A DNA stretch of 37,606 nt from a virus, in the IMG/VR virus record IMGVR_UViG_3300032242_000050, positions 1 through 37,606 of that record; one strand, 5' to 3'. Positions 712 through 12,487 of this stretch are shown piece by piece (within the stretch, counting starts at the first letter, position 1; the number at the start of each line of letters is the position of its first letter). Made by a program: the position numbers and the translations under genes. The notes under the pieces were generated by a model. The model ran no database searches, was not told where the DNA came from, and saw only the letters and a program-made list of their open reading frames with translations.

Positions 712-2172
712 TTATATTTGGGCAGTGTGTACCGGAACGTTATAGTACTTGCTGAATAGATCAGCATCTCTACGATCGTTTGCTATAGGCTGTCCTTTAA
801 TGTTTAGGCTAGTATTAAGTAGTACAGGGCATCCTGTTTCATTATACCACGCTTCTAGCAACTGTCTAAATCCACTTCCGTCATTAGGAACAGTCTGTAC
901 TCTGCTAGTATTGTCATAATGTATGATCGCAGGTAGTTCATCTGGCTTTAGACATTTAACAGCGTATTGCATAAATCTTGAAGGATATTTGAGATCAAAG
1001 TATTCACTCGCATGTTCTTCTAGTATCGCAGGAGCAAACGGACGGAACTGTTGACGCTTCTTAATATCGTTTACTTTTACCTTGATATCATTTGATCTAG
1101 GATCAGCTAATAGGCTTCGATTACCAAGTGCTCTAGGTCCAAACTCAGCTCTACCATTGGCTACACCGGCTGGTATGCCCTTTAGAAGATCCTTTAATAC
1201 AGCATCTACGGGATACTTGCCTACTATATCGTATCCTAGATAACAGTTCTCCCACGTTAGATTATAGCAAGTATGTGCAAGTACAGCACCTACGCTTGAT
1301 CCACTATCACCTGGATTAGGGAATATCCAAACATCGTCAAAGTATTCCCAGGCTATCGTATTAGCAAGACAGTTTAGGGCACAGCCTCCTGCTAATGCTA
1401 TACGTGTAGCACCAGTTAATTCCTTAGTCTTTTGTAGTAGTAGTCTGAACTGATCTTCATAGATACTCTGTGTAGCAGCAGCAATATCAAATAGATCTTG
1501 TACACTGTTTAGTTCTTCTGCCCAATAAGCACATCCTCTATGTAGATTAACAGTTAGTTTACTATTGTTCCACATATCTTCTAGTATGCGATCCTTTAGT
1601 CTAGTTGGATCGCCGTATGCTGCCATACCCATAAGGATGTATTCATCTTCCTGTGGTTTGAGTCCTATACGTTGTGTCATAGCACTATAGAACAGTCCTA
1701 GGCTATCAGGGAAGTTCTTAGTCCACTTCTTCTTTAGATATCCACTACGCCCTTTCCATATGCTTGTTGTATTCCATTCACCTATGCTATCTATACACAG
1801 CACAGCACATTCAAACCATGGAGCAGTATAGAATGCAGCAGCAGCATGTGAATGATGATGATCAATGTAGGTTATAGGAACATCTTCAATCCCGTATGTC
1901 TTTAGGTATTCTTCTATATTGTTCTGTTTGAATCGGAGACCTTGCCCTGCCCACAGTTGTCTTAACGACTTCATAAAGGGACGTTCATACCAACAGACAC
2001 GAGATGGATGTCCGTAACGATTTATTAACTGCCGAACCATTCCTGCTGACAGATCTCTATCGTTCTTTTTTCCAGTGTATCTTTCTGTTTGGCTAGCGAA
2101 GAGTAACTTCTCATCATCGAATACGGCGATAGAAGCATCGTGGCTATTGCCCGAGATCCCCCAAATAATCAT
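712..2172 (-). CDS. Carbamoyltransferase (NodU/CmcH/TobZ family)
   Basis: The 486-aa protein has the Kae1-like ATP-binding fold of O-carbamoyltransferases, which make carbamoyl-adenylate from carbamoyl phosphate and pass it to a hydroxyl group. Visible landmarks are the N-terminal WGISGNSHDAS, a histidine cluster HHHSHAAAAF at 105-114 (metal and active site in this family), GGCALNC at 262-268, GRAEFGPRALGNRS at 340-353 and RQQFRPFAPAI at 373-383. It is somewhat shorter than the usual 520-600 residues. Its ATG overlaps the stop of the 37-aa gene upstream (ATGA) and gp41 follows, so it is embedded in the replication operon. The family is clear. The substrate is not; modified DNA bases are an inference discussed in the findings. 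Confidence 0.9.
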   Translation of the reverse strand: MIIWGISGNSHDASIAVFDDEKLLFASQTERYTGKKNDRDLSAGMVRQLINRYGHPSRVCWYERPFMKSLRQLWAGQGLRFKQNNIEEYLKTYGIEDVPITYIDHHHSHAAAAFYTAPWFECAVLCIDSIGEWNTTSIWKGRSGYLKKKWTKNFPDSLGLFYSAMTQRIGLKPQEDEYILMGMAAYGDPTRLKDRILEDMWNNSKLTVNLHRGCAYWAEELNSVQDLFDIAAATQSIYEDQFRLLLQKTKELTGATRIALAGGCALNCLANTIAWEYFDDVWIFPNPGDSGSSVGAVLAHTCYNLTWENCYLGYDIVGKYPVDAVLKDLLKGIPAGVANGRAEFGPRALGNRSLLADPRSNDIKVKVNDIKKRQQFRPFAPAILEEHASEYFDLKYPSRFMQYAVKCLKPDELPAIIHYDNTSRVQTVPNDGSGFRQLLEAWYNETGCPVLLNTSLNIKGQPIANDRRDADLFSKYYNVPVHTAQI

Positions 2173-2282
2173 CTGTAGATAAACGGATCTCTCTTGCGCA
2201 ACTCTTCTATGCGCTTGCGAAATCTACGGCGTTCGTTGTATGTTCGTATTGGCCAAGATATCCATTCCCATAACTTCTTCAT
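2169..2282 (-). CDS. 37-aa basic peptide between primase and carbamoyltransferase
   Basis: This short gene was read directly from the sequence. ATG at 2280-2282 overlaps the primase TGA (ATGA), and its own TGA at 2169-2171 overlaps the carbamoyltransferase ATG in the same way. The peptide starts MKKLWEWISWPIRTYNE, continues with a strongly basic helix (RRRFRKRIEELRKRD) and ends PFIYR. An aromatic, tryptophan-rich N-terminus followed by a charged helix suggests a membrane-peripheral or nucleic-acid/protein-binding peptide. The double coupling and lack of spare bases argue that it is real. I recall short proteins of this style near gp61 in marine T4-like phages but know no function. Confidence 0.72.
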   Translation of the reverse strand: MKKLWEWISWPIRTYNERRRFRKRIEELRKRDPFIYR

Positions 2283-3244
2283 AATTTCATCCTCAGTTTA
2301 GATTTAAGTTCAGTAGTTTCAACGTTCTTCATGATACTTATCATAGTAGATAGACGCCCGTAACGTTTAATAGCATCTCCTGCATCCTTGATGTCTTTAT
2401 CCCAATTAGGGAATGCGATACTCCATCCTAGATCAATCGCTTGTCTAGCCATAGTCTCTCCTGCTTTATCTTGATCTGGAACAACGATTACCTGTTTACC
2501 TAGCCTATTGATCTGTAGTGCTTGTTCACTACTAATCTCGTTAGTTAGAACAGCTACTCCACCTAGCATTATAGCGTCAATGCTGCCTTCAAATACTAGC
2601 ACAAATTTACGGTCATAAGGTTGGTTGTCTAGATTGAATACTATATGTGGAGGGTGTTCGGTTAAGTATTTTGGCTTACCCTCTCTGCACTTGCGAGCAA
2701 TATAGCCCATGATCTTACGATCCACTGTTAATGGTATTAAGAACCTATCAGCGAATCCAGGATGATCGCTCCAATAGAAGTCACAGTCTTCCAAAGTTAG
2801 ACCTCTACTATAGATATACTCTACTACAGGTATTACTCTATCATCTTCTAGTATAAGATCCTCAGTGATCAATCGTGAGTTCTTAGGCATGTCTCTAGGC
2901 GTAAACTCTGGTATAGCAATAATGTCCTTAGATTTCTTACCTGCTTCAATCTTCATACATTCGAATGCAATACGATTTATTTGCTCGTCACTAGCACCTA
3001 GCCAACGTAGCAAGTCCTGCATTCGTTTACCTAGATTGCGTCCCGGCCTCCAGCTAGCCTTCCAACCACAGTTAAAGCAGTGATAGCTTGCTCCACCGTC
3101 CTCAGTCTTTATAAGTCCGCCGCGTTTCTTTATATCACGGCTTTCACCATTGTTATGACAGCATGGGGCATTAAAGCTAACCCACCCACTAGAGGTTTGC
3201 TTTCTTTGCGGAAGCAGAGCAAGTAGTTCATCATATACTGACAT
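2279..3244 (-). CDS. 61: DNA primase gp61
   Basis: The 321-aa primase lays down RNA primers on the lagging strand in complex with gp41. The N-terminus has a zinc-binding domain with Cys28, Cys29, His30 and the pair Cys56/Cys59 in YHCFNCGW. A TOPRIM catalytic domain follows: the glutamate in LVFEGSIDA (about 219) and the DxD pair in VVPDQDKAGE (257 and 259). The length is close to T4 gp61 (342). The gene starts at ATG 3242-3244 and its stop overlaps the 37-aa gene. It lies two genes before gp41, consistent with co-production of the primosome. Confidence 0.9.
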   Translation of the reverse strand: MSVYDELLALLPQRKQTSSGWVSFNAPCCHNNGESRDIKKRGGLIKTEDGGASYHCFNCGWKASWRPGRNLGKRMQDLLRWLGASDEQINRIAFECMKIEAGKKSKDIIAIPEFTPRDMPKNSRLITEDLILEDDRVIPVVEYIYSRGLTLEDCDFYWSDHPGFADRFLIPLTVDRKIMGYIARKCREGKPKYLTEHPPHIVFNLDNQPYDRKFVLVFEGSIDAIMLGGVAVLTNEISSEQALQINRLGKQVIVVPDQDKAGETMARQAIDLGWSIAFPNWDKDIKDAGDAIKRYGRLSTMISIMKNVETTELKSKLRMKL

Positions 3245-4076: not shown

Positions 4077-4445
4077 ACTAATTTAAAAGATAAGATCCAG
4101 GATCAGTTTCCATTCATCACTGTCATAACATATGGTAATTTAGAATATGTAGGCATAGTAATCAATCAAGATAACAACATAACTAGCATTTATGATTATA
4201 ATATCTTGAAAGCTGAAGAGCATAAGAAATACTTTTTAGAAATGGGTGATGTATGGTGGTGGGAATCAAACCGTATGTTGCCCATAAACATTTTCCTACG
4301 CAAGGAAATGGATGTGTTCCGTTATGCCATAAAGAATTTTGCTACTAAAGATGTAGTAGTAATAATGGGACCAGTTGTTAATCTACATAATATTATAATG
4401 AAACGGGTTAAACGTCGTTCAGTTCAATTAGTCCGTAGGCGTTAA
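4074..4445 (+). CDS. Conserved T4-like marine phage protein, 123 aa, function unknown
   Basis: The 123-aa protein starts MTNLKDKIQDQFPFITVITYG and contains YVGIVINQDNNITSIYDYN, the motif WWWESNRMLPINIFL and a basic end (KRVKRRSVQLVRRR). I recognise the pattern as a conserved hypothetical of marine T4-like phages, with no known function. An in-frame TTG at 4023 lies upstream of the late promoter motif, so ATG 4074 is preferred. It is the only plus-strand gene in the left third and converges on the DnaE-like gene with an 18-nt overlap of 3' ends. The strongly basic tail suggests nucleic-acid or RNA polymerase contact, but that is a guess. Confidence 0.75.
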   Translation: MTNLKDKIQDQFPFITVITYGNLEYVGIVINQDNNITSIYDYNILKAEEHKKYFLEMGDVWWWESNRMLPINIFLRKEMDVFRYAIKNFATKDVVVIMGPVVNLHNIIMKRVKRRSVQLVRRR

Positions 4446-5003
4446 ACGTTCGCATATTAAATTAAGTTGTACTACTATTGCAGCAGCATATGCAATCGCA
4501 TGAGATCTTTTAAAGAAATATAGATCTTCAGATGGTCTTTCCCATACTTCTTTTATTATAACATCCCATCCTTTATCAAGTAGATATCTCTTAGCTGGTC
4601 GTATGATAGCCAATACTGCTGCTAGTTCTTCTATGCTAGTAGGTTTGAGTTTCTTTAATATTGTATGATGTTCACTAATATGGAACAGTTGTGTAACTAC
4701 TTCTTCATGTTCTAGTAAATGCCAAAGAGGCTCTTGATCTAGTAGATTTTTTAGATGTGTCTCATCTCTTATACCTTCATACATACTAACATTGAGAAAA
4801 TCTACTTTAAAGTATCCCCTATCTTCTGCAGCCTTATAATCTATAGTTGTTATGTTAGTAAATGGGTTATATGGGATCTGTTGGAAATATACACCTGTAT
4901 TATGTTTAACAGGTTGTCCTTTCTGATCACGCATAGCGATATGATGCTCTAGTATTTCTAGAGCCTTAGTGCGGTCAAAGAAATCTATATCAATATCAGG
5001 CAT
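4428..5003 (-). CDS. Miniature DNA polymerase III alpha (DnaE)-like protein
   Basis: This 191-aa protein reads like a condensed C-family polymerase palm. MPDIDIDF at 1-8 matches the catalytic PDxDxDF of DnaE. KHNTGVYF at 33-40 matches the KHAGGVVI region. GYFKVDFLNV at 63-72 matches KFDFLGL, which carries the third catalytic aspartate. LKPTSIEELAAVLAIIRPA at 119-137 matches the LQP...ALVALFRPGP segment. FKRSHAIAYA at 164-173 matches NKSHSAAYA. All three metal-binding aspartates (D3, D5, D68) are kept, while the PHP, thumb, tail and most finger sequence is absent (DnaE is about 1100 aa). Its ATG overlaps the stop of the 56-aa gene (TAATG). The relationship is seen by eye. Whether it polymerises DNA is unknown. 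Confidence 0.7.
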   Translation of the reverse strand: MPDIDIDFFDRTKALEILEHHIAMRDQKGQPVKHNTGVYFQQIPYNPFTNITTIDYKAAEDRGYFKVDFLNVSMYEGIRDETHLKNLLDQEPLWHLLEHEEVVTQLFHISEHHTILKKLKPTSIEELAAVLAIIRPAKRYLLDKGWDVIIKEVWERPSEDLYFFKRSHAIAYAAAIVVQLNLICERLTPTD

Positions 5004-5173
5004 TAGTGCTTAACATTACTATCAAAGAACAACAAGGGCAAGTTTTCTTCTAAGAAATCACTAAACTGCTCTATCTGTTCTGCATCTTCGAATCCATTAA
5101 ACTTAACCGTAACTTCCAATGTGTCTTTATCTAGTGTGAGGATGTATCGTAGATCGACTTCATCTGGATTCAT
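5003..5173 (-). CDS. Small acidic protein, 56 aa
   Basis: Read directly from the sequence: ATG at 5171-5173 overlaps the TGA of the zinc-finger gene (ATGA), and TAA at 5003-5005 shares one base with the ATG of the DnaE-like gene (TAATG). The protein starts MNPDEVDLRYILTLDKDTLE and continues through VTVKFNGFEDAEQIEQFSDFL to LPLLFFDSNVKH. It is acidic, with an alternating strand-helix pattern like a small alpha/beta adaptor. No family is recognised. Tight coupling on both sides suggests it is made together with the DnaE-like protein and may partner it. Confidence 0.72.
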   Translation of the reverse strand: MNPDEVDLRYILTLDKDTLEVTVKFNGFEDAEQIEQFSDFLEENLPLLFFDSNVKH

Positions 5174-5850
5174 AATTTTGCTTCCTTTATAATGTTCTTA
5201 ACAAACTCTGTATCATTCTTATTTGCTTTAAACTTATCTAACCAGAAGACTAAATCTATCATAGGGCCCACAGTCTGTAACTGGTCATCCGACAAGTTTT
5301 TTAATGTTTTCATTCCCGTTTCACTGTTTAACATTATCCAAGGACTAATCTTTCCGTCTCGGATGTCATATGTTATTCTATTTAAGTTCGCGTAAAGGAA
5401 ATAGTGATTCCACTGTGCTTCGTTTTTGCTAGCCCAGTCACACATAGTATTAATTGATCTTTCACTAGCCGATTCAACATTCTCAGATTTAATTAGATCA
5501 ACTACATACTTGTCATACAGTTCTTCTTTACACCATTTATCGAGCGGTACTTGGCTTTTGATAACCCAATCGATGTACTTGTCTGGGTATAGTGGATTAA
5601 CGTTGCTCATAAAGCTACCAAACTTTACGAAAGCATTGTAATAGGGACTCTTACAGAACTCTTCGTATGTTTTTTCAGTTTTACCGTTCTGTGTTAGTTT
5701 ATAAAACCGATTATAGACATAGAATCCAGATTGTACTCTGCGCTCATCCTTCTGCATATAACGACGCTTAGGTTCGCACATATGAACTGCCAGTGTCTTT
5801 TCTTTGACAAAGTCTTTCTCACAGAATCGACACTGGAACTCTTTAGAGAT
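5170..5850 (-). CDS. C2H2-type zinc-finger protein, probable AUC start
   Basis: The open frame reaches an ATG at 5907, but that would overlap the upstream gene by 65 nt and has no Shine-Dalgarno site. An AAGGAG at 5858-5863 lies exactly 7 nt before an in-frame ATC at 5848-5850, just past the upstream stop, so I place the start there (226 aa). The N-terminus holds a zinc finger: FQCRFCEKDF, then VHMCEPKRRY. The rest is helical and aromatic, with VKFGSFMSNVNPLYPDKYIDW and DKWCKEELYDKYV. I recall a conserved marine T4-like phage protein of this kind with unknown function. A distant likeness to helicase loader gp59 is possible but not shown. Confidence 0.65.
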   Translation of the reverse strand: MSKEFQCRFCEKDFVKEKTLAVHMCEPKRRYMQKDERRVQSGFYVYNRFYKLTQNGKTEKTYEEFCKSPYYNAFVKFGSFMSNVNPLYPDKYIDWVIKSQVPLDKWCKEELYDKYVVDLIKSENVESASERSINTMCDWASKNEAQWNHYFLYANLNRITYDIRDGKISPWIMLNSETGMKTLKNLSDDQLQTVGPMIDLVFWLDKFKANKNDTEFVKNIIKEAKL

Positions 5851-6313
5851 CTTTGATCTCCTTATCTGTCCAACCGAGATCTCTAGCAAGTTCTTTAAGT
5901 TCATCATTGGTGCTAATTTCCGCTAATAGTTCTAGTTCATCTTGTTTCATGTTAGGATATACATCCTCTAGTAACTTAATTCTCTTGCTGTTCTTTGTCT
6001 TCTTACCTAATCCTAGCCATTCATGATAGAACGTCTTATTTCCATCCCAGTTACATAAGCATAGTAACTGCCACATTAGTTTAGGATGTTTCTGTAGAGT
6101 AAACCAATGTTTATTAAAGTATTCGTTTACAGTTAGTACAAAATACTCAGCATGTTCTCTATTGTTTGTCTTGACATTACTTATATAACGATTAAGTATC
6201 CAAAGTTCGCTTTTAAGCGCCTTACGTTGATCGTCGTCAATGTCGTCCCAGAGATTCTTTGCTCCTAGATCAACTGCTAGTATCTTTTCTTTAAGTGCTA
6301 TTTTTTCTGTCAT
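5843..6313 (-). CDS. Conserved phage protein, 156 aa, function unknown
   Basis: The protein is helical and rich in Trp and Lys: LWILNRYISNVK near 52-63, VNEYFNKHW, KLMWQLLCLCNWDGN, FYHEWLGLGKK, and a leucine-rich C-terminus (DELELLAEISTNDELKELA). The layout loosely recalls small clamp-loader subunit gp62 (a hydrophobic helix, then a KW-type basic motif, then a C-terminal helical pair), but no diagnostic motif is visible. ATG 6311-6313 overlaps the preceding gene by 23 nt with only a weak upstream AAAAG. It lies mid-operon between UvsW and the DnaE-like gene, so a replication or recombination role is likely. Confidence 0.75.
   Translation of the reverse strand: MTEKIALKEKILAVDLGAKNLWDDIDDDQRKALKSELWILNRYISNVKTNNREHAEYFVLTVNEYFNKHWFTLQKHPKLMWQLLCLCNWDGNKTFYHEWLGLGKKTKNSKRIKLLEDVYPNMKQDELELLAEISTNDELKELARDLGWTDKEIKDL
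5858..5863 (-). promoter_or_regulatory. Shine-Dalgarno AAGGAG placing an AUC start at 5850
   Basis: AAGGAG on the minus strand is followed by 7 nt and then ATC in the frame of the zinc-finger gene. It lies inside the 3' end of the 156-aa gene, whose TAA is at 5843-5845. The spacing is identical to that at the gp15 start (28891-28904). Confidence 0.55.
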
Positions 6314-7064: not shown

Positions 7065-8513
7065 CTAAATATCTACTTTTGTAATCGTGAACGGATATTT
7101 TGCGTCCTTATAAAATTTCTTACGTTCTGTTAAATGCCTCTTAGCATACTTACAACTCGATGTTATGTCCCAGATCTGAACAAAGTCTTTATCTTCTGCT
7201 TTACGTATTCCACGCCCGATAGACTGAATGACGCGAACAAAAGACTTGCCAGGCTCAAGGAGAACAAGATTAAAGATGCGAGGAATATTAATGCCCACAG
7301 CAGCAACACCATATGTTGCCACGATAATCTTGTTATCGCTTGTTTTAATCTCGTCATACTCTTCTTTCCGTTCTTTTGATTTTACAGCACCACTTACAAA
7401 TGCAGCCTCCGGAATTAAATCAATTAACTGCTTTCCGGAATCAATACGATTAACTAGAACAAGTGTATTACCCGTTAGTGCTATCTCGTTTATCTTTTTG
7501 CTTAACCATTTAATGCGATCAGGATCTGTAACTAGATACTTGTATTCGTCGGCATATGACCGGAATTCTTTAACGTCTGTTACTTGTGTAATGTTAACAT
7601 GACACTGTGCTAAGATACCTTTTTCTTGTAGTTGATTAGCAGTAACACGATGTATAACTTCACCAATTGAACAGCGTATTGATTCATATTCAAACTTCTC
7701 TTTAGGAACAGTTCCAGTTAGTCCCCAACGTATAGGAGAGTTAGCAAAGTTAACAGTAAGTAGTTTCTTAAGCACTTCTGCCTTTGCTTGATGTACTTCG
7801 TCAATAATAATAGCAGCAACACCTTCAGTAAACTCTGCTAATGTAAGTAATTCAGTATCGTGGCTCTTCTTATCTAGTATGTTTAGACTCTGCCAAGTAC
7901 AGATCGTATGTGTCTTGTTAAGTTCTTTACGATCTCCGTAATAAACTCCGACGTCTAGTCCTACATTAATGTAGTCTTCTTCTGTCTGCTCTACTAGGCT
8001 TTTGTTTGGAACGATAATCATTGTCCTGCCATACTTCTCGCAGATCTTGCTTAGGGTCGCGGTCATAATCGTCTTTCCCGCCCCAGTAGCAACTTCTTGG
8101 AGTGCTTGTGGAGTTTCTAGGAAATTATTGATGACTTCAACTTGATCATCACGTAGCCGTATCGGCTTGCCGGCGAATCTATGACCACTTGGCCAAACTT
8201 TGTCTCCCCAAAATTCCTCTGTGATCTTTTCAAAAACAATTTTAGGGTGTTGCCTGTGATCATCAACTTCGATATCGTAGCCTAGATCATCAAGTATAGG
8301 TAGGATATCATCAAGTTGATTGATGTATCCAGTACCCCCAACTCCAAAGAATGCTACAGTACCATCCCACCTACCTAAGCGATAAGAAGGTTGATACCTT
8401 GCCCATGGGACTTCATACTTGAACTTATTAGCCAGTTTCTTTCTAGCTTCAAGACTCAAGCCTTCGAATTTAATATTAACTTCATCCTTGATTATAAGTT
8501 TACAACTTGACAA
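7065..8513 (-). CDS. uvsW: UvsW, SF2 RNA-DNA and DNA helicase
   Basis: The 482-aa helicase remodels branched DNA and R-loops and helps switch T4-like phages to recombination-dependent replication. An N-terminal substrate domain (FKYEVPWARYQPSYRLGRWDG) precedes the motor, which has Walker A ATGAGKT at 142-148, DEVH at 238-241, GLTGT at 264-268 and motif VI QSIGRGIRK at 430-438. Length is close to T4 UvsW (503). No ATG lies near the start. The protein begins at TTG (8511-8513) with an AGGA 8 nt upstream, overlapping the preceding gene by 14 nt. The weak start may keep its level low. Confidence 0.93.
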   Translation of the reverse strand: MSSCKLIIKDEVNIKFEGLSLEARKKLANKFKYEVPWARYQPSYRLGRWDGTVAFFGVGGTGYINQLDDILPILDDLGYDIEVDDHRQHPKIVFEKITEEFWGDKVWPSGHRFAGKPIRLRDDQVEVINNFLETPQALQEVATGAGKTIMTATLSKICEKYGRTMIIVPNKSLVEQTEEDYINVGLDVGVYYGDRKELNKTHTICTWQSLNILDKKSHDTELLTLAEFTEGVAAIIIDEVHQAKAEVLKKLLTVNFANSPIRWGLTGTVPKEKFEYESIRCSIGEVIHRVTANQLQEKGILAQCHVNITQVTDVKEFRSYADEYKYLVTDPDRIKWLSKKINEIALTGNTLVLVNRIDSGKQLIDLIPEAAFVSGAVKSKERKEEYDEIKTSDNKIIVATYGVAAVGINIPRIFNLVLLEPGKSFVRVIQSIGRGIRKAEDKDFVQIWDITSSCKYAKRHLTERKKFYKDAKYPFTITKVDI

Positions 8514-9719: not shown

Positions 9720-10175
9720 TTACAAACTTGCATCTTCCATGCCAGCAACTCTCAATTTGATAACATTACTAAGTTGCCATTGTTTAATATCTAGACCCTT
9801 AATGATTCCTAACCACTTGTTACGTAGTAAGGCAAACTCATTAATAATCTTTTCAAAATCCACTACATCGGCTTCACCATCTACATATTTTTCTACGTCT
9901 CGACTAGAAAGAGATCGTTGATAATTCTCTAAGTACTTCTTAAAAAATTGGCTACGTAGACGGCGTTGCTCGATATTTAGGTATTCTAAAATAGCTTCAA
10001 TCTCTTGTAGCTGATTGTAACGATGCTCAACTATACCGGGCATCGACGCTGCGGCTTTCTCAATATTTCCAACTATCTTTACTTCTCTACGAGCTTCAGT
10101 AAGTTCGTATTCATAGTATGTAATAGCTTCAGGAATATTAGAAATATCTTGGCTAACTTTAGAATACCATGTCAT
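9720..10175 (-). CDS. uvsY: UvsY recombination mediator
   Basis: The 151-aa protein loads UvsX onto gp32-coated single-stranded DNA. It matches UvsY in length (T4: 137) and in character: a helical, basic protein with the family-like segment MPGIVEHRYNQLQEIEAILEYL at about 44-65, then RRLRSQFFKKYLENYQRSLSSRDVEKYVDG. It follows UvsX and the 72-aa gene, a common order in marine T4-like phages. The ATG at 10173-10175 is 7 nt past the preceding stop. Confidence 0.88.
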   Translation of the reverse strand: MTWYSKVSQDISNIPEAITYYEYELTEARREVKIVGNIEKAAASMPGIVEHRYNQLQEIEAILEYLNIEQRRLRSQFFKKYLENYQRSLSSRDVEKYVDGEADVVDFEKIINEFALLRNKWLGIIKGLDIKQWQLSNVIKLRVAGMEDASL

Positions 10176-10182
10176 GTATCAC

Positions 10183-10401
10183 TCAATCGTCATCATAGTC
10201 TTCGGGCTCTTCAATATCTAGTGCGATGCGTATAGCTTCGTCTAGATCATCATCGTTTCCTAGAGAGTTTTCAATATGCTGTTCACTTACACCATTTTCA
10301 CTAAGGATGTCAACAAACTTCTCAGCGACAACAGCTAACTGCTTCTTATCTGAATACTCTCTAATTAAGTGCCAAATTTCTACAATAAGTTCTTCGTTCA
10401 T
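10183..10401 (-). CDS. Small acidic protein, 72 aa, between UvsX and UvsY
   Basis: The first 55 residues are two or three helices (ELIVEIWHLIREYSDKKQLA, AEKFVDILSENGVSEQHI). The C-terminus is very acidic (DLDEAIRIALDIEEPEDYDDD), which may mimic nucleic acid or contact the basic UvsX/UvsY proteins. ATG 10399-10401 overlaps the UvsX stop (ATGA). No known family. Synteny suggests a recombination accessory factor. Confidence 0.75.
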   Translation of the reverse strand: MNEELIVEIWHLIREYSDKKQLAVVAEKFVDILSENGVSEQHIENSLGNDDDLDEAIRIALDIEEPEDYDDD

Positions 10402-11459
10402 TCTACTGGTTCTCCGGTAATTTCTTCTACAGCCACTGATTCAACTGGCTTGATTAGTATATAGTCTAACATAACCATATTCAACAATTCTCCAGTCCAC
10501 TTCTTGCGATATTCTAAGAATTCATTACCTTTAGAATCTGTATACTTGAGACGATTGCCCTGCTCCTTGATAATACCCTTCTTCTCAAAGAGTTCAAGCA
10601 ATCCACTATAAGGATTCATACCAGTCTCATAGGGTATCTTGATCTGCAAACTTTCAAAAGGTTTAGCATAACGAGTCTTCATGATCTTACAAGCAGCACG
10701 GATACCATTTACTTCCGATACCTTATTACCGTCCTCATCTTCCTTAAGCTTTAGCTTCTTCATAGCAACTACGATACTAGAAGCATATACGAACCCCTGT
10801 CCACCTGAGATCTTATCGTCTGGATCAAACATATCTTGGCTTGCATATGTGTGATTAGTACACACCATACCTACATTATATGATCCAAACATATTAACAC
10901 AGTTACGGACAAGTGCTGTTAGCGCCTTAGGCTTACGGCCCATATCACCCTTTAGATCACCTGCTTCGAACTGATTGATATCAGTCGGTGTTAGTAGCAT
11001 ACCGAGACTGTCAACAACAAACAAGACCTTAGGTCTTTCACCATCAGGCATTGCCTTATATTCTTTCATAAACTCGTGGATAGTTCTAGCAACATCATCG
11101 ATCATTGCCATATTGAGTTTAAGCATCTTCTCAGGACTAGTATCAACTCCTAATGCGTGTAACCACTTTTCATCTAGTGCGTTTTCACTATCAATAAGCA
11201 CTACGAAGATATCTTGTTCCTGAGCATACTTAACGATGTTACCAGAACAGATATAACTCTTACCTGCGCCCGATTCTCCAGCAAACACAGTAACCTTACC
11301 TAGTGGAATACCTCTATGGAAGTCTCCACTGATGAGATAGTTTAGTGCGTAATTGCCTGTTGAAACCCAATCAGTTGGATCATTAAACCCTACACCAAGT
11401 CCATCAATGCTCTTAGTTAGAGTCTTTCTAAATTTTGTAATATCAAATGTTTTTGCCAT
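10398..11459 (-). CDS. uvsX: UvsX, RecA-like recombinase
   Basis: The 353-aa protein forms filaments on single-stranded DNA and drives strand exchange, which initiates recombination-dependent replication. It has Walker A GESGAGKS at 61-68, Walker B KVLFVVDSLGM at 144-154, and the ISGGQGFVYASSIVV segment that corresponds to the L2 region. Length fits the family (T4: 391). An AGGTATG immediately before the ATG (11457-11459) gives only a short ribosome site. Downstream genes overlap it, so UvsX, the 72-aa protein and UvsY are likely one translation unit. Confidence 0.95.
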   Translation of the reverse strand: MAKTFDITKFRKTLTKSIDGLGVGFNDPTDWVSTGNYALNYLISGDFHRGIPLGKVTVFAGESGAGKSYICSGNIVKYAQEQDIFVVLIDSENALDEKWLHALGVDTSPEKMLKLNMAMIDDVARTIHEFMKEYKAMPDGERPKVLFVVDSLGMLLTPTDINQFEAGDLKGDMGRKPKALTALVRNCVNMFGSYNVGMVCTNHTYASQDMFDPDDKISGGQGFVYASSIVVAMKKLKLKEDEDGNKVSEVNGIRAACKIMKTRYAKPFESLQIKIPYETGMNPYSGLLELFEKKGIIKEQGNRLKYTDSKGNEFLEYRKKWTGELLNMVMLDYILIKPVESVAVEEITGEPVE

Positions 11460-11512: not shown

Positions 11513-12487
11513 TTACTTAGACTGCCTTGCGCGGATCATGCTTAGGATGTCGTTAGCCTTGCTATCACCTGAACTCTTTGTCTCAGCAACAGGTGGTGCA
11601 ACCTTTGCTGGAGTTGGCTCAAAAGGGATATCATCATCCTCCACTACAGCTGCCTTAGGCGATGCTGCTTGTGTACGAGTGTTTGGATCACCAGTTGCCT
11701 GGCTCATGCCAGCAGCGCGATAATACTGCCCCCACTTCTCTGCGTCGTAGGCCTCGCCATCAACAGATGCTTCAAACATCTCCTTGATAACCTTAAGTTC
11801 TACGTCAGTTGGCTTCTTAGGTAGATAGTCCTTTAGATTGAACAGTCCATGTGCATTAATTGCCTTAATGTCATTATCATTAAGAGCACGCTCACGACGC
11901 CCCCACTTTGAAGTAGAATAGTCAGCAAATCCACCCTTGCTTGTCTTAGCAATTCGGAAATCTAGACCATGCTGATAGTCAGTTGGGAGATCCTCAATCT
12001 CTGGATCAAGTAGTGCTGCACGGACGATTTGGAAGATCTGAGGACCGAGGATAAACCTACGGATAGGATTCTCTGGAGTATTCTCTTCCTTAAGAGGATC
12101 GTCAACGACAACGCCCTGGAACAGATATGAACGCTTCTTCCAATACTTACGGCCCATATCCTCAAGGCTCTTGTCCTTGAACCAGCCGCGTACTTCACTC
12201 AATACTGGGCAAGTCTCCCCCCACATCTCTACGCAAGGTACCTGTACCTGTGTAGGACGTGAATCAGTTTCACCCTTAACACCGTTGAACGGAAGCTTAA
12301 TCATTGCTCGCTCAACCCAGAAAAATGTATTATTTGCATCACCATCTGGTAAGAATCGAAGCAGTGCTTCCTGTCCTTCTTTTAAATTCCAGAACGGATA
12401 AACTGCGTTATCACCACCACCCTGGTTACCTGATGACTTTGTCTCTTGCTCGCGAAGTTTTGCGCGAATTTCTGCTAATGATGCCAT
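11513..12487 (-). CDS. 32: Single-stranded DNA-binding protein gp32
   Basis: The 324-aa protein coats single-stranded DNA and organises replication and repair proteins. The N-terminus carries the LAST-like cooperativity motif (IRAKLRE, 7-13). The OB-type core includes YPFWNLKEGQEALLRFLPDGD and an aromatic-rich region. Only two cysteines (C85, C93 in PCVEMWGETCPV) are near the expected zinc site. The linker after 265 is low complexity and contains DDDIPF at 284-289, like the tip of bacterial SSB, but followed by 35 more residues. AGGAG sits 9 nt before ATG 12485-12487. It leads the recombination operon. Confidence 0.92.
   Translation of the reverse strand: MASLAEIRAKLREQETKSSGNQGGGDNAVYPFWNLKEGQEALLRFLPDGDANNTFFWVERAMIKLPFNGVKGETDSRPTQVQVPCVEMWGETCPVLSEVRGWFKDKSLEDMGRKYWKKRSYLFQGVVVDDPLKEENTPENPIRRFILGPQIFQIVRAALLDPEIEDLPTDYQHGLDFRIAKTSKGGFADYSTSKWGRRERALNDNDIKAINAHGLFNLKDYLPKKPTDVELKVIKEMFEASVDGEAYDAEKWGQYYRAAGMSQATGDPNTRTQAASPKAAVVEDDDIPFEPTPAKVAPPVAETKSSGDSKANDILSMIRARQSK

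Follow-up and report, generated by a model that had tools for sequence, protein, structure and literature searches.

The window, a stretch of 37,606 nucleotides from an uncultured phage (IMG/VR record IMGVR_UViG_3300032242_000050), encodes a 191-residue protein, here called the C-unit, which is most likely one half of a minimal accessory polymerase of the C-family (DnaE/Pol III alpha) that is divided between two proteins, namely the half that binds metal and lies on the template side. The explanation that we consider probable is that the C-unit is the C-terminal part, which binds the metals, of a minimal C-family DNA polymerase or nucleotidyltransferase that is encoded by two genes and confined to one large clade of T4-like jumbo phages; the two chains would join and carry out short-patch synthesis. 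Iyer et al. 2021 (PMC7824862) described, in the 'group 2.2' jumbo phages, a phage-specific minimal form of Pol III alpha whose two parts are encoded by distant genes; they proposed that it cooperates with the family B enzyme and that it survives as an ancestral relic. Since that arrangement had been described, the window gene is a further case of an already predicted split polymerase. Judging from the description in that paper, which gives no C-unit accession, and from the phages it names and the split itself, our C-unit should correspond to its C-terminal unit.

The C-unit and the genes around it in the window are as follows.

712-2172, minus strand: Nol-like carbamoyltransferase (phrog_1601, E=1.6e-97), directly after the primase gene and part of the replication run
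2279..3244, minus strand: DNA primase (phrog_47), downstream of the C-unit on the same strand, with a homologue in 68/80 C-unit loci
4077..4445, plus strand: phrog_11637, opposite-strand neighbour, found in 75/80 C-unit loci
4431..5003 with the stop codon at 4428-4430, minus strand: C-unit, 191 aa, starting MPDIDIDF, with C-family (DnaE/Pol III alpha) homology
5003..5173, minus strand: 56-aa upstream ORF, whose stop overlaps the C-unit start (TAATG)
5170..5907, minus strand: 245-aa protein (phrog_11058) with a weak C2H2-finger-like match below the cut-off, neighbour in 77/80 C-unit loci
7065..8513, minus strand: UvsW-type helicase, upstream of the C-unit in the same gene run
9720-10175, minus strand: UvsY-like protein of the T4-like recombination/replication cluster
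10398-11459, minus strand: UvsX, same cluster
11513-12487, minus strand: gp32-like single-stranded DNA-binding protein (SSB), same cluster

The earlier note on this DNA had proposed, from the letters alone, that the C-unit is related to the C-family polymerases, and profile searches bore this out with significant matches. The PHROGs families phrog_11778 (E=1.4e-68) and phrog_405 (E=7.7e-8), both annotated 'DNA polymerase' and the latter a profile of 1190 positions, matched the C-unit, as did the NCBIfam profile TIGR00594 polc (E=2.5e-5). Pfam DNA_pol3_finger gave an E-value of 0.0025, a match too weak to reach the Pfam cut-off. A profile built from 73 C-unit homologues reached M. tuberculosis Pol III alpha in the PDB (E=9.8e-5), and in a bacterial genome scan its relatives at no fewer than 21 confirmed loci were, among the matches listed, dnaE in every case. 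When the C-unit alignment was compared with the single E. coli DnaE sequence using hhalign, an E-value of 0.0007 was obtained with a probability of only 27%, and the global mode returned nothing. The AlphaFold2 model of the C-unit, generated from its natural alignment, was confident (pLDDT 86.9, pTM 0.70), and in a Foldseek search of 350,542 PDB chains ranks 1-9 were all occupied by Pol III alpha, the best E-value (0.011) being marginal. A chance resemblance of the C-unit to DnaE was rejected on its conservation together with this fold ranking.

All the DnaE motifs quoted in the earlier note were found in the 191-aa ORF in the order in which they occur in DnaE, and its assignment of D3, D5 and D68 to E. 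coli DnaE D401, D403 and D555 was reproduced when the protein was aligned together with true DnaE proteins. The same multiple alignment places D7, K66, P136 and H168 at E. coli D405, K553, P640 and H760. Relative to DnaE, the C-unit alignment has a gap from the DxD block to the KHxxG block and nothing beyond the SHA helix, and the PHP domain, thumb, OB and clamp-binding regions are absent from the 191-aa chain. What the C-unit does keep, LKP..EELAAVLAIIRP and the SHA helix, corresponds to blocks that are conserved in the DnaE fingers. By a simple pattern, a finger motif like E. coli LRRAMGKK (LRRxxxKK) was found in 0/81 C-units; MAFFT sets the invariant K138 (K138-R139) at this position, and these two residues are possibly a short remnant of the bacterial finger motif. 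To call the C-unit a 'palm' is slightly generous, as the protein lacks the part of the palm that comes first and bears the GS motif, this part being carried by a separate gene product, the N-unit.

Conservation of the C-unit is strict. All 81 non-redundant homologues (81/81) have D3, D5, D7, H34, G37, K66, D68, R135, P136, K138 and H168, among them all three aspartates that the earlier note took to be catalytic. Compared with its two nearest relatives the C-unit had a dN/dS of 0.07-0.10; with three others at ~70% identity, a distance at which dS is large, it was 0.09-0.18. The C-unit is thus, on these sequence comparisons, under purifying selection.

In E. coli DnaE, a strand and a loop with the GRGS motif (residues 361-364) precede the strand that bears D401. 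The corresponding segment is absent from the window protein, and in related genomes it is found in a second conserved phage gene, the N-unit (phrog_11127), whose product is ~165-210 aa long in a set of 80 ORFs. Positions ~13-98 of PF07733 matched above the cut-off in 11/15 related genomes, always far from the C-unit. GRGS is invariant in 49/49 aligned N-units, a set from which one long DnaE-like ORF (L169) was left out, and in 80/80 N-units of a second, overlapping scan. The N-unit ends exactly 33 aa past GRG in 69/80 cases, typically with the C-terminus ...KYNLDIKEFLK. Its AlphaFold2 model from the natural alignment was likewise confident (pLDDT 81.8, pTM 0.63), and Foldseek against the same PDB chains placed Pol III alpha at ranks 1-7, with a marginal best E-value of 0.17.

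The two units are complementary pieces of one catalytic core. The match of the N-unit in E. coli DnaE stops at residue 393 and the homology of the C-unit begins at ~400, and the two genes therefore tile the core with a gap of ~6 residues. On the phrog_405 profile the N-unit lies at positions 357-429 and the C-unit at 564-678. Using 11 natural N-unit/C-unit pairs, we built joined profiles: in the N-C order the profile matched E. coli DnaE with E=1.4e-9, one domain of 30.7 bits spanning the junction, whereas in the reversed C-N order the junction alignment was lost (32.8 bits in total, E=3.3e-7; best domain 22.2 bits, E=5.7e-4). No ORF among the examined loci matched both units as a natural N-C fusion would, and in the jumbo phages the two genes lie at least 30 kb apart. 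The window contig is a fragment of 37.6 kb and contains no N-unit, so the pairing proposed for the window phage is inferred from its relatives.

These results bear on the proposal of the earlier note that the phage carries a stripped C-family palm. The part that stands is that the C-unit is a genuine DnaE catalytic piece in a T4-like phage, as the profile matches and invariant residues indicate. That it is a self-contained mini-palm, acting alone in gap filling or end addition, appears very improbable: the three catalytic aspartates and the equivalents of K553 and H760 are all present in the C-unit and its monomer model is confident, but the segment with the GS motif is not there, and a co-occurring phage gene carries this missing palm segment and ends almost exactly where the C-unit begins.

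In order to see how the two halves are distributed, isolate genomes and environmental contigs were compared. Both halves were present in 8/8 isolate genomes tested, in 3/7 related contigs and in another 3 contigs, each 200 kb long or more. Among the IMG/VR contigs of 200 kb or more, tested from either side, 6/9 hold both halves (270, 223, 364, 328, 259 and 200.6 kb); the exceptions, all possibly fragments, are a 280-kb C-unit contig with no detectable N-unit and two N-unit contigs, of 229 kb and 235 kb, with no detectable C-unit. A C-unit search on 21 N-unit contigs, most of them short fragments (48-236 kb), found none. INPHARED yielded 90 records with the C-unit and 98 with the N-unit, with near-identical counts by genus (C-unit/N-unit: Escherichia 34/34, Pseudomonas 11/11, Erwinia 8/8, Klebsiella 11/10), and 4 Listeria phages had N-unit matches only. 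Stretches from IMG/VR contained at least 548 C-units and at least 583 N-units. Such numbers weigh heavily against the gene being a host dnaE that was once captured and is now in decay, an origin to which we give almost no credence and which the conservation data have largely refuted. The C-unit is indeed shorter than bacterial DnaE, and the 172-aa N-unit of phage CBB has been called truncated (PMC5259590), but homologues number in the hundreds, the active sites are invariant, dN/dS is low and the gene order is conserved.

Matches to the family B polymerase (PF00136) were obtained in 8/8 isolates and 4/7 related contigs, and most of the family B frames recovered in relatives show the A, B and C motifs, many also the exonuclease motif. 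The relatives of the window phage therefore carry the family B enzyme that the earlier note had expected in such phages. Because these polymerases look apparently intact in sequence, an extra polymerase is not obviously needed. In Agrobacterium phage Atu_ph07 (L107/L114) the family B polymerase lies in more than one reading frame, as does that of Paride (L110, with a separate 379-aa frame); the family B replicase of these two phages may be split too.

An apparently intact replicase of the phage's own, together with the small size of the C-unit and its lack of thumb, PHP and clamp-binding regions, would fit a protein that docks on the host DnaE or on the phage family B polymerase and modulates it without catalysis of its own. 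We consider such a decoy or partner unlikely, since neither the metal-binding aspartates nor the substrate-side residues vary at all among the homologues, and purifying selection acts on them. The form of this idea put forward in the earlier note, a partner or decoy of the host replicase, also fares badly in that the phage itself, in relatives, encodes the complementary half.

The gene neighbourhoods of both halves are those of replication genes. In the window contig the T4-like core (SSB, UvsX, UvsW) accompanies the C-unit, which lies within a gene run from SSB through UvsX, UvsY and UvsW to the primase; its place in a recombination operon, as had been stated from the sequence alone, is thereby confirmed. 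Across 80 C-unit loci, UvsW lies upstream in 66; downstream lie the primase, with the count given above, and, in 58, a DnaB helicase. The N-unit precedes a GroES-like gene in 48/50 loci and the clamp loader in 38/50. The coupling of the C-unit to the 56-aa ORF, also pointed out previously, is seen as the TAATG overlap, which makes translational coupling of the two probable, but a homologue of this small ORF was detected in just 24/80 related loci. In the C-unit gene run of phages 121Q (L085 3802-4620) and GAP32 (L086 3723-4568), a DnaQ-like exonuclease gene lies between UvsX/UvsY and UvsW, the RNase_T match of the 121Q protein having E=6.7e-15. It is a possible proofreader; no such exonuclease was found at the corresponding place in the window. 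Directly 3' of the N-unit, 36-37/50 loci have a gene for a protein of ~115 aa (e.g. L171 7382-7726, L172 7523-7864), of which the Paride and Atu_ph07 copies gave no Pfam match. This protein is a candidate third component.

We propose the following mechanism for the N-C pair, whose physical assembly, catalysis and exact role we infer from the sequence evidence above. The N-unit would bring in the nucleotide-binding motif GRGS with its strand and loop, and the C-unit would contribute D3/D5/D68, K66, K138 and H168 to a shared active site. The two chains probably join non-covalently, because both genes have a start and a stop of their own and neither shows an intein sequence, and one DnaE-like active site would thus be rebuilt. 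The resulting enzyme would have no PHP domain, no thumb, only a minor part of the fingers and neither a clamp-binding nor an OB domain; with these parts absent, processive replication is unlikely without partners, and short-patch synthesis is likeliest. Such an enzyme may extend phage primers until the family B polymerase of the phage takes over, or it may fill gaps during recombination-dependent replication. Primer extension or gap filling is the likeliest role on the basis of the gene neighbourhood and by analogy. In the literature searched we found no biochemical study of a split phage Pol III alpha.

The loss of the thumb and of most finger elements would also suit a pair that is a nucleotidyltransferase rather than a templated DNA polymerase, in which the C-family active site has been kept for end addition, RNA-end repair or nucleotide signalling, and many enzymes of the nucleotidyltransferase fold are template-independent (PMC11646218). 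This seems to us a minor possibility, given that the kept blocks named above are the ones conserved in DnaE fingers and that both halves sit in replication gene runs.

If two proteins of ~170 and ~190 residues do together restore a functional C-family site, they would offer a minimal model for the function and evolution of the bacterial replicase, and hundreds of jumbo phages would replicate using two unrelated polymerase families together. With the junction placed to the residue and the invariant positions listed, a simple reconstitution experiment becomes feasible. A bolder form of the hypothesis, which we put forward only tentatively and hold to be doubtful, is that this is the smallest C-family polymerase: ~360 residues from two unlinked genes, without thumb or PHP, active in trans beside a family B replicase and dedicated to primer extension or gap filling, with ties by neighbourhood to the primase-helicase and the clamp loader, and with a split site that mobile introns have also invaded in other phage dnaE genes.

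The last of these points rests on Staphylococcus phage SpP (PP468606; L178 1838-3018), in which dnaE has a ~1.2-kb insert with a GIY-YIG/NUMOD3 endonuclease at the palm junction. The insert lies between ..YDLPYWR and ..LNKDRPEMADIDID, ~3 residues before the end point of the jumbo-phage N-unit, and in the relative 6ec the same dnaE is uninterrupted. It is probably a group I intron, the halves being rejoined by RNA splicing; Rfam gave no intron match in the SpP locus or in the window. Although this interruption nearly matches the jumbo-phage split point, the SpP dnaE is full-length and PHP-containing with its halves adjacent, unlike the widely separated jumbo-phage halves. The near-matching insertion point is compatible with, but no proof of, a history in which such an insertion came first and fission of the jumbo-phage gene followed; this would be an alternative to the ancestral relic of Iyer et al. 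A different arrangement is seen in Gordonia phage Djokovic, Microbacterium phage Poultress and Mycobacterium phage Weiss13 (L175, L176, L177), where DnaE comes as two proteins, one with PHP and one with the polymerase, the break being at about E. coli residues 270-320. These actinophage genes were rejected as instances of the same split, their break falling between PHP and palm; it is a second recurrent split point of DnaE.

The C-family polymerases are enzymes of ~1000 residues or more. With bacterial DnaE and PolC the phage pair shares the catalytic triad and the aligned K553, RP and H760 blocks, the GRGS motif being in the N-unit; it differs in having a C-unit of 191 aa against 1160 aa, in being encoded by two genes, and in lacking PHP, thumb, full fingers, clamp-binding and OB regions. 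Viral PolX enzymes with only the NT fold and fingers, which are very small repair polymerases (PMC11646218), provide a precedent for a tiny nucleotidyltransferase-fold repair polymerase, but PolX is a single chain of a different family. The closest system is the split Pol III alpha of the group 2.2 phages (phrog_11778 for the C-unit, phrog_11127 for the N-unit), with which our case shares the clade of T4-like jumbo phages and, as judged from relatives, the family B polymerase and the placing of the NTP-binding and the Mg2+/template-binding parts in two distant genes. Unlike the phages named in that group, the window phage is an uncultured relative, the best identity in INPHARED being 51%. What is new beyond Iyer et al. 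is the residue-level junction, the invariance counts, the neighbours of both halves, and the near-matching endonuclease insertion point in another phage dnaE.
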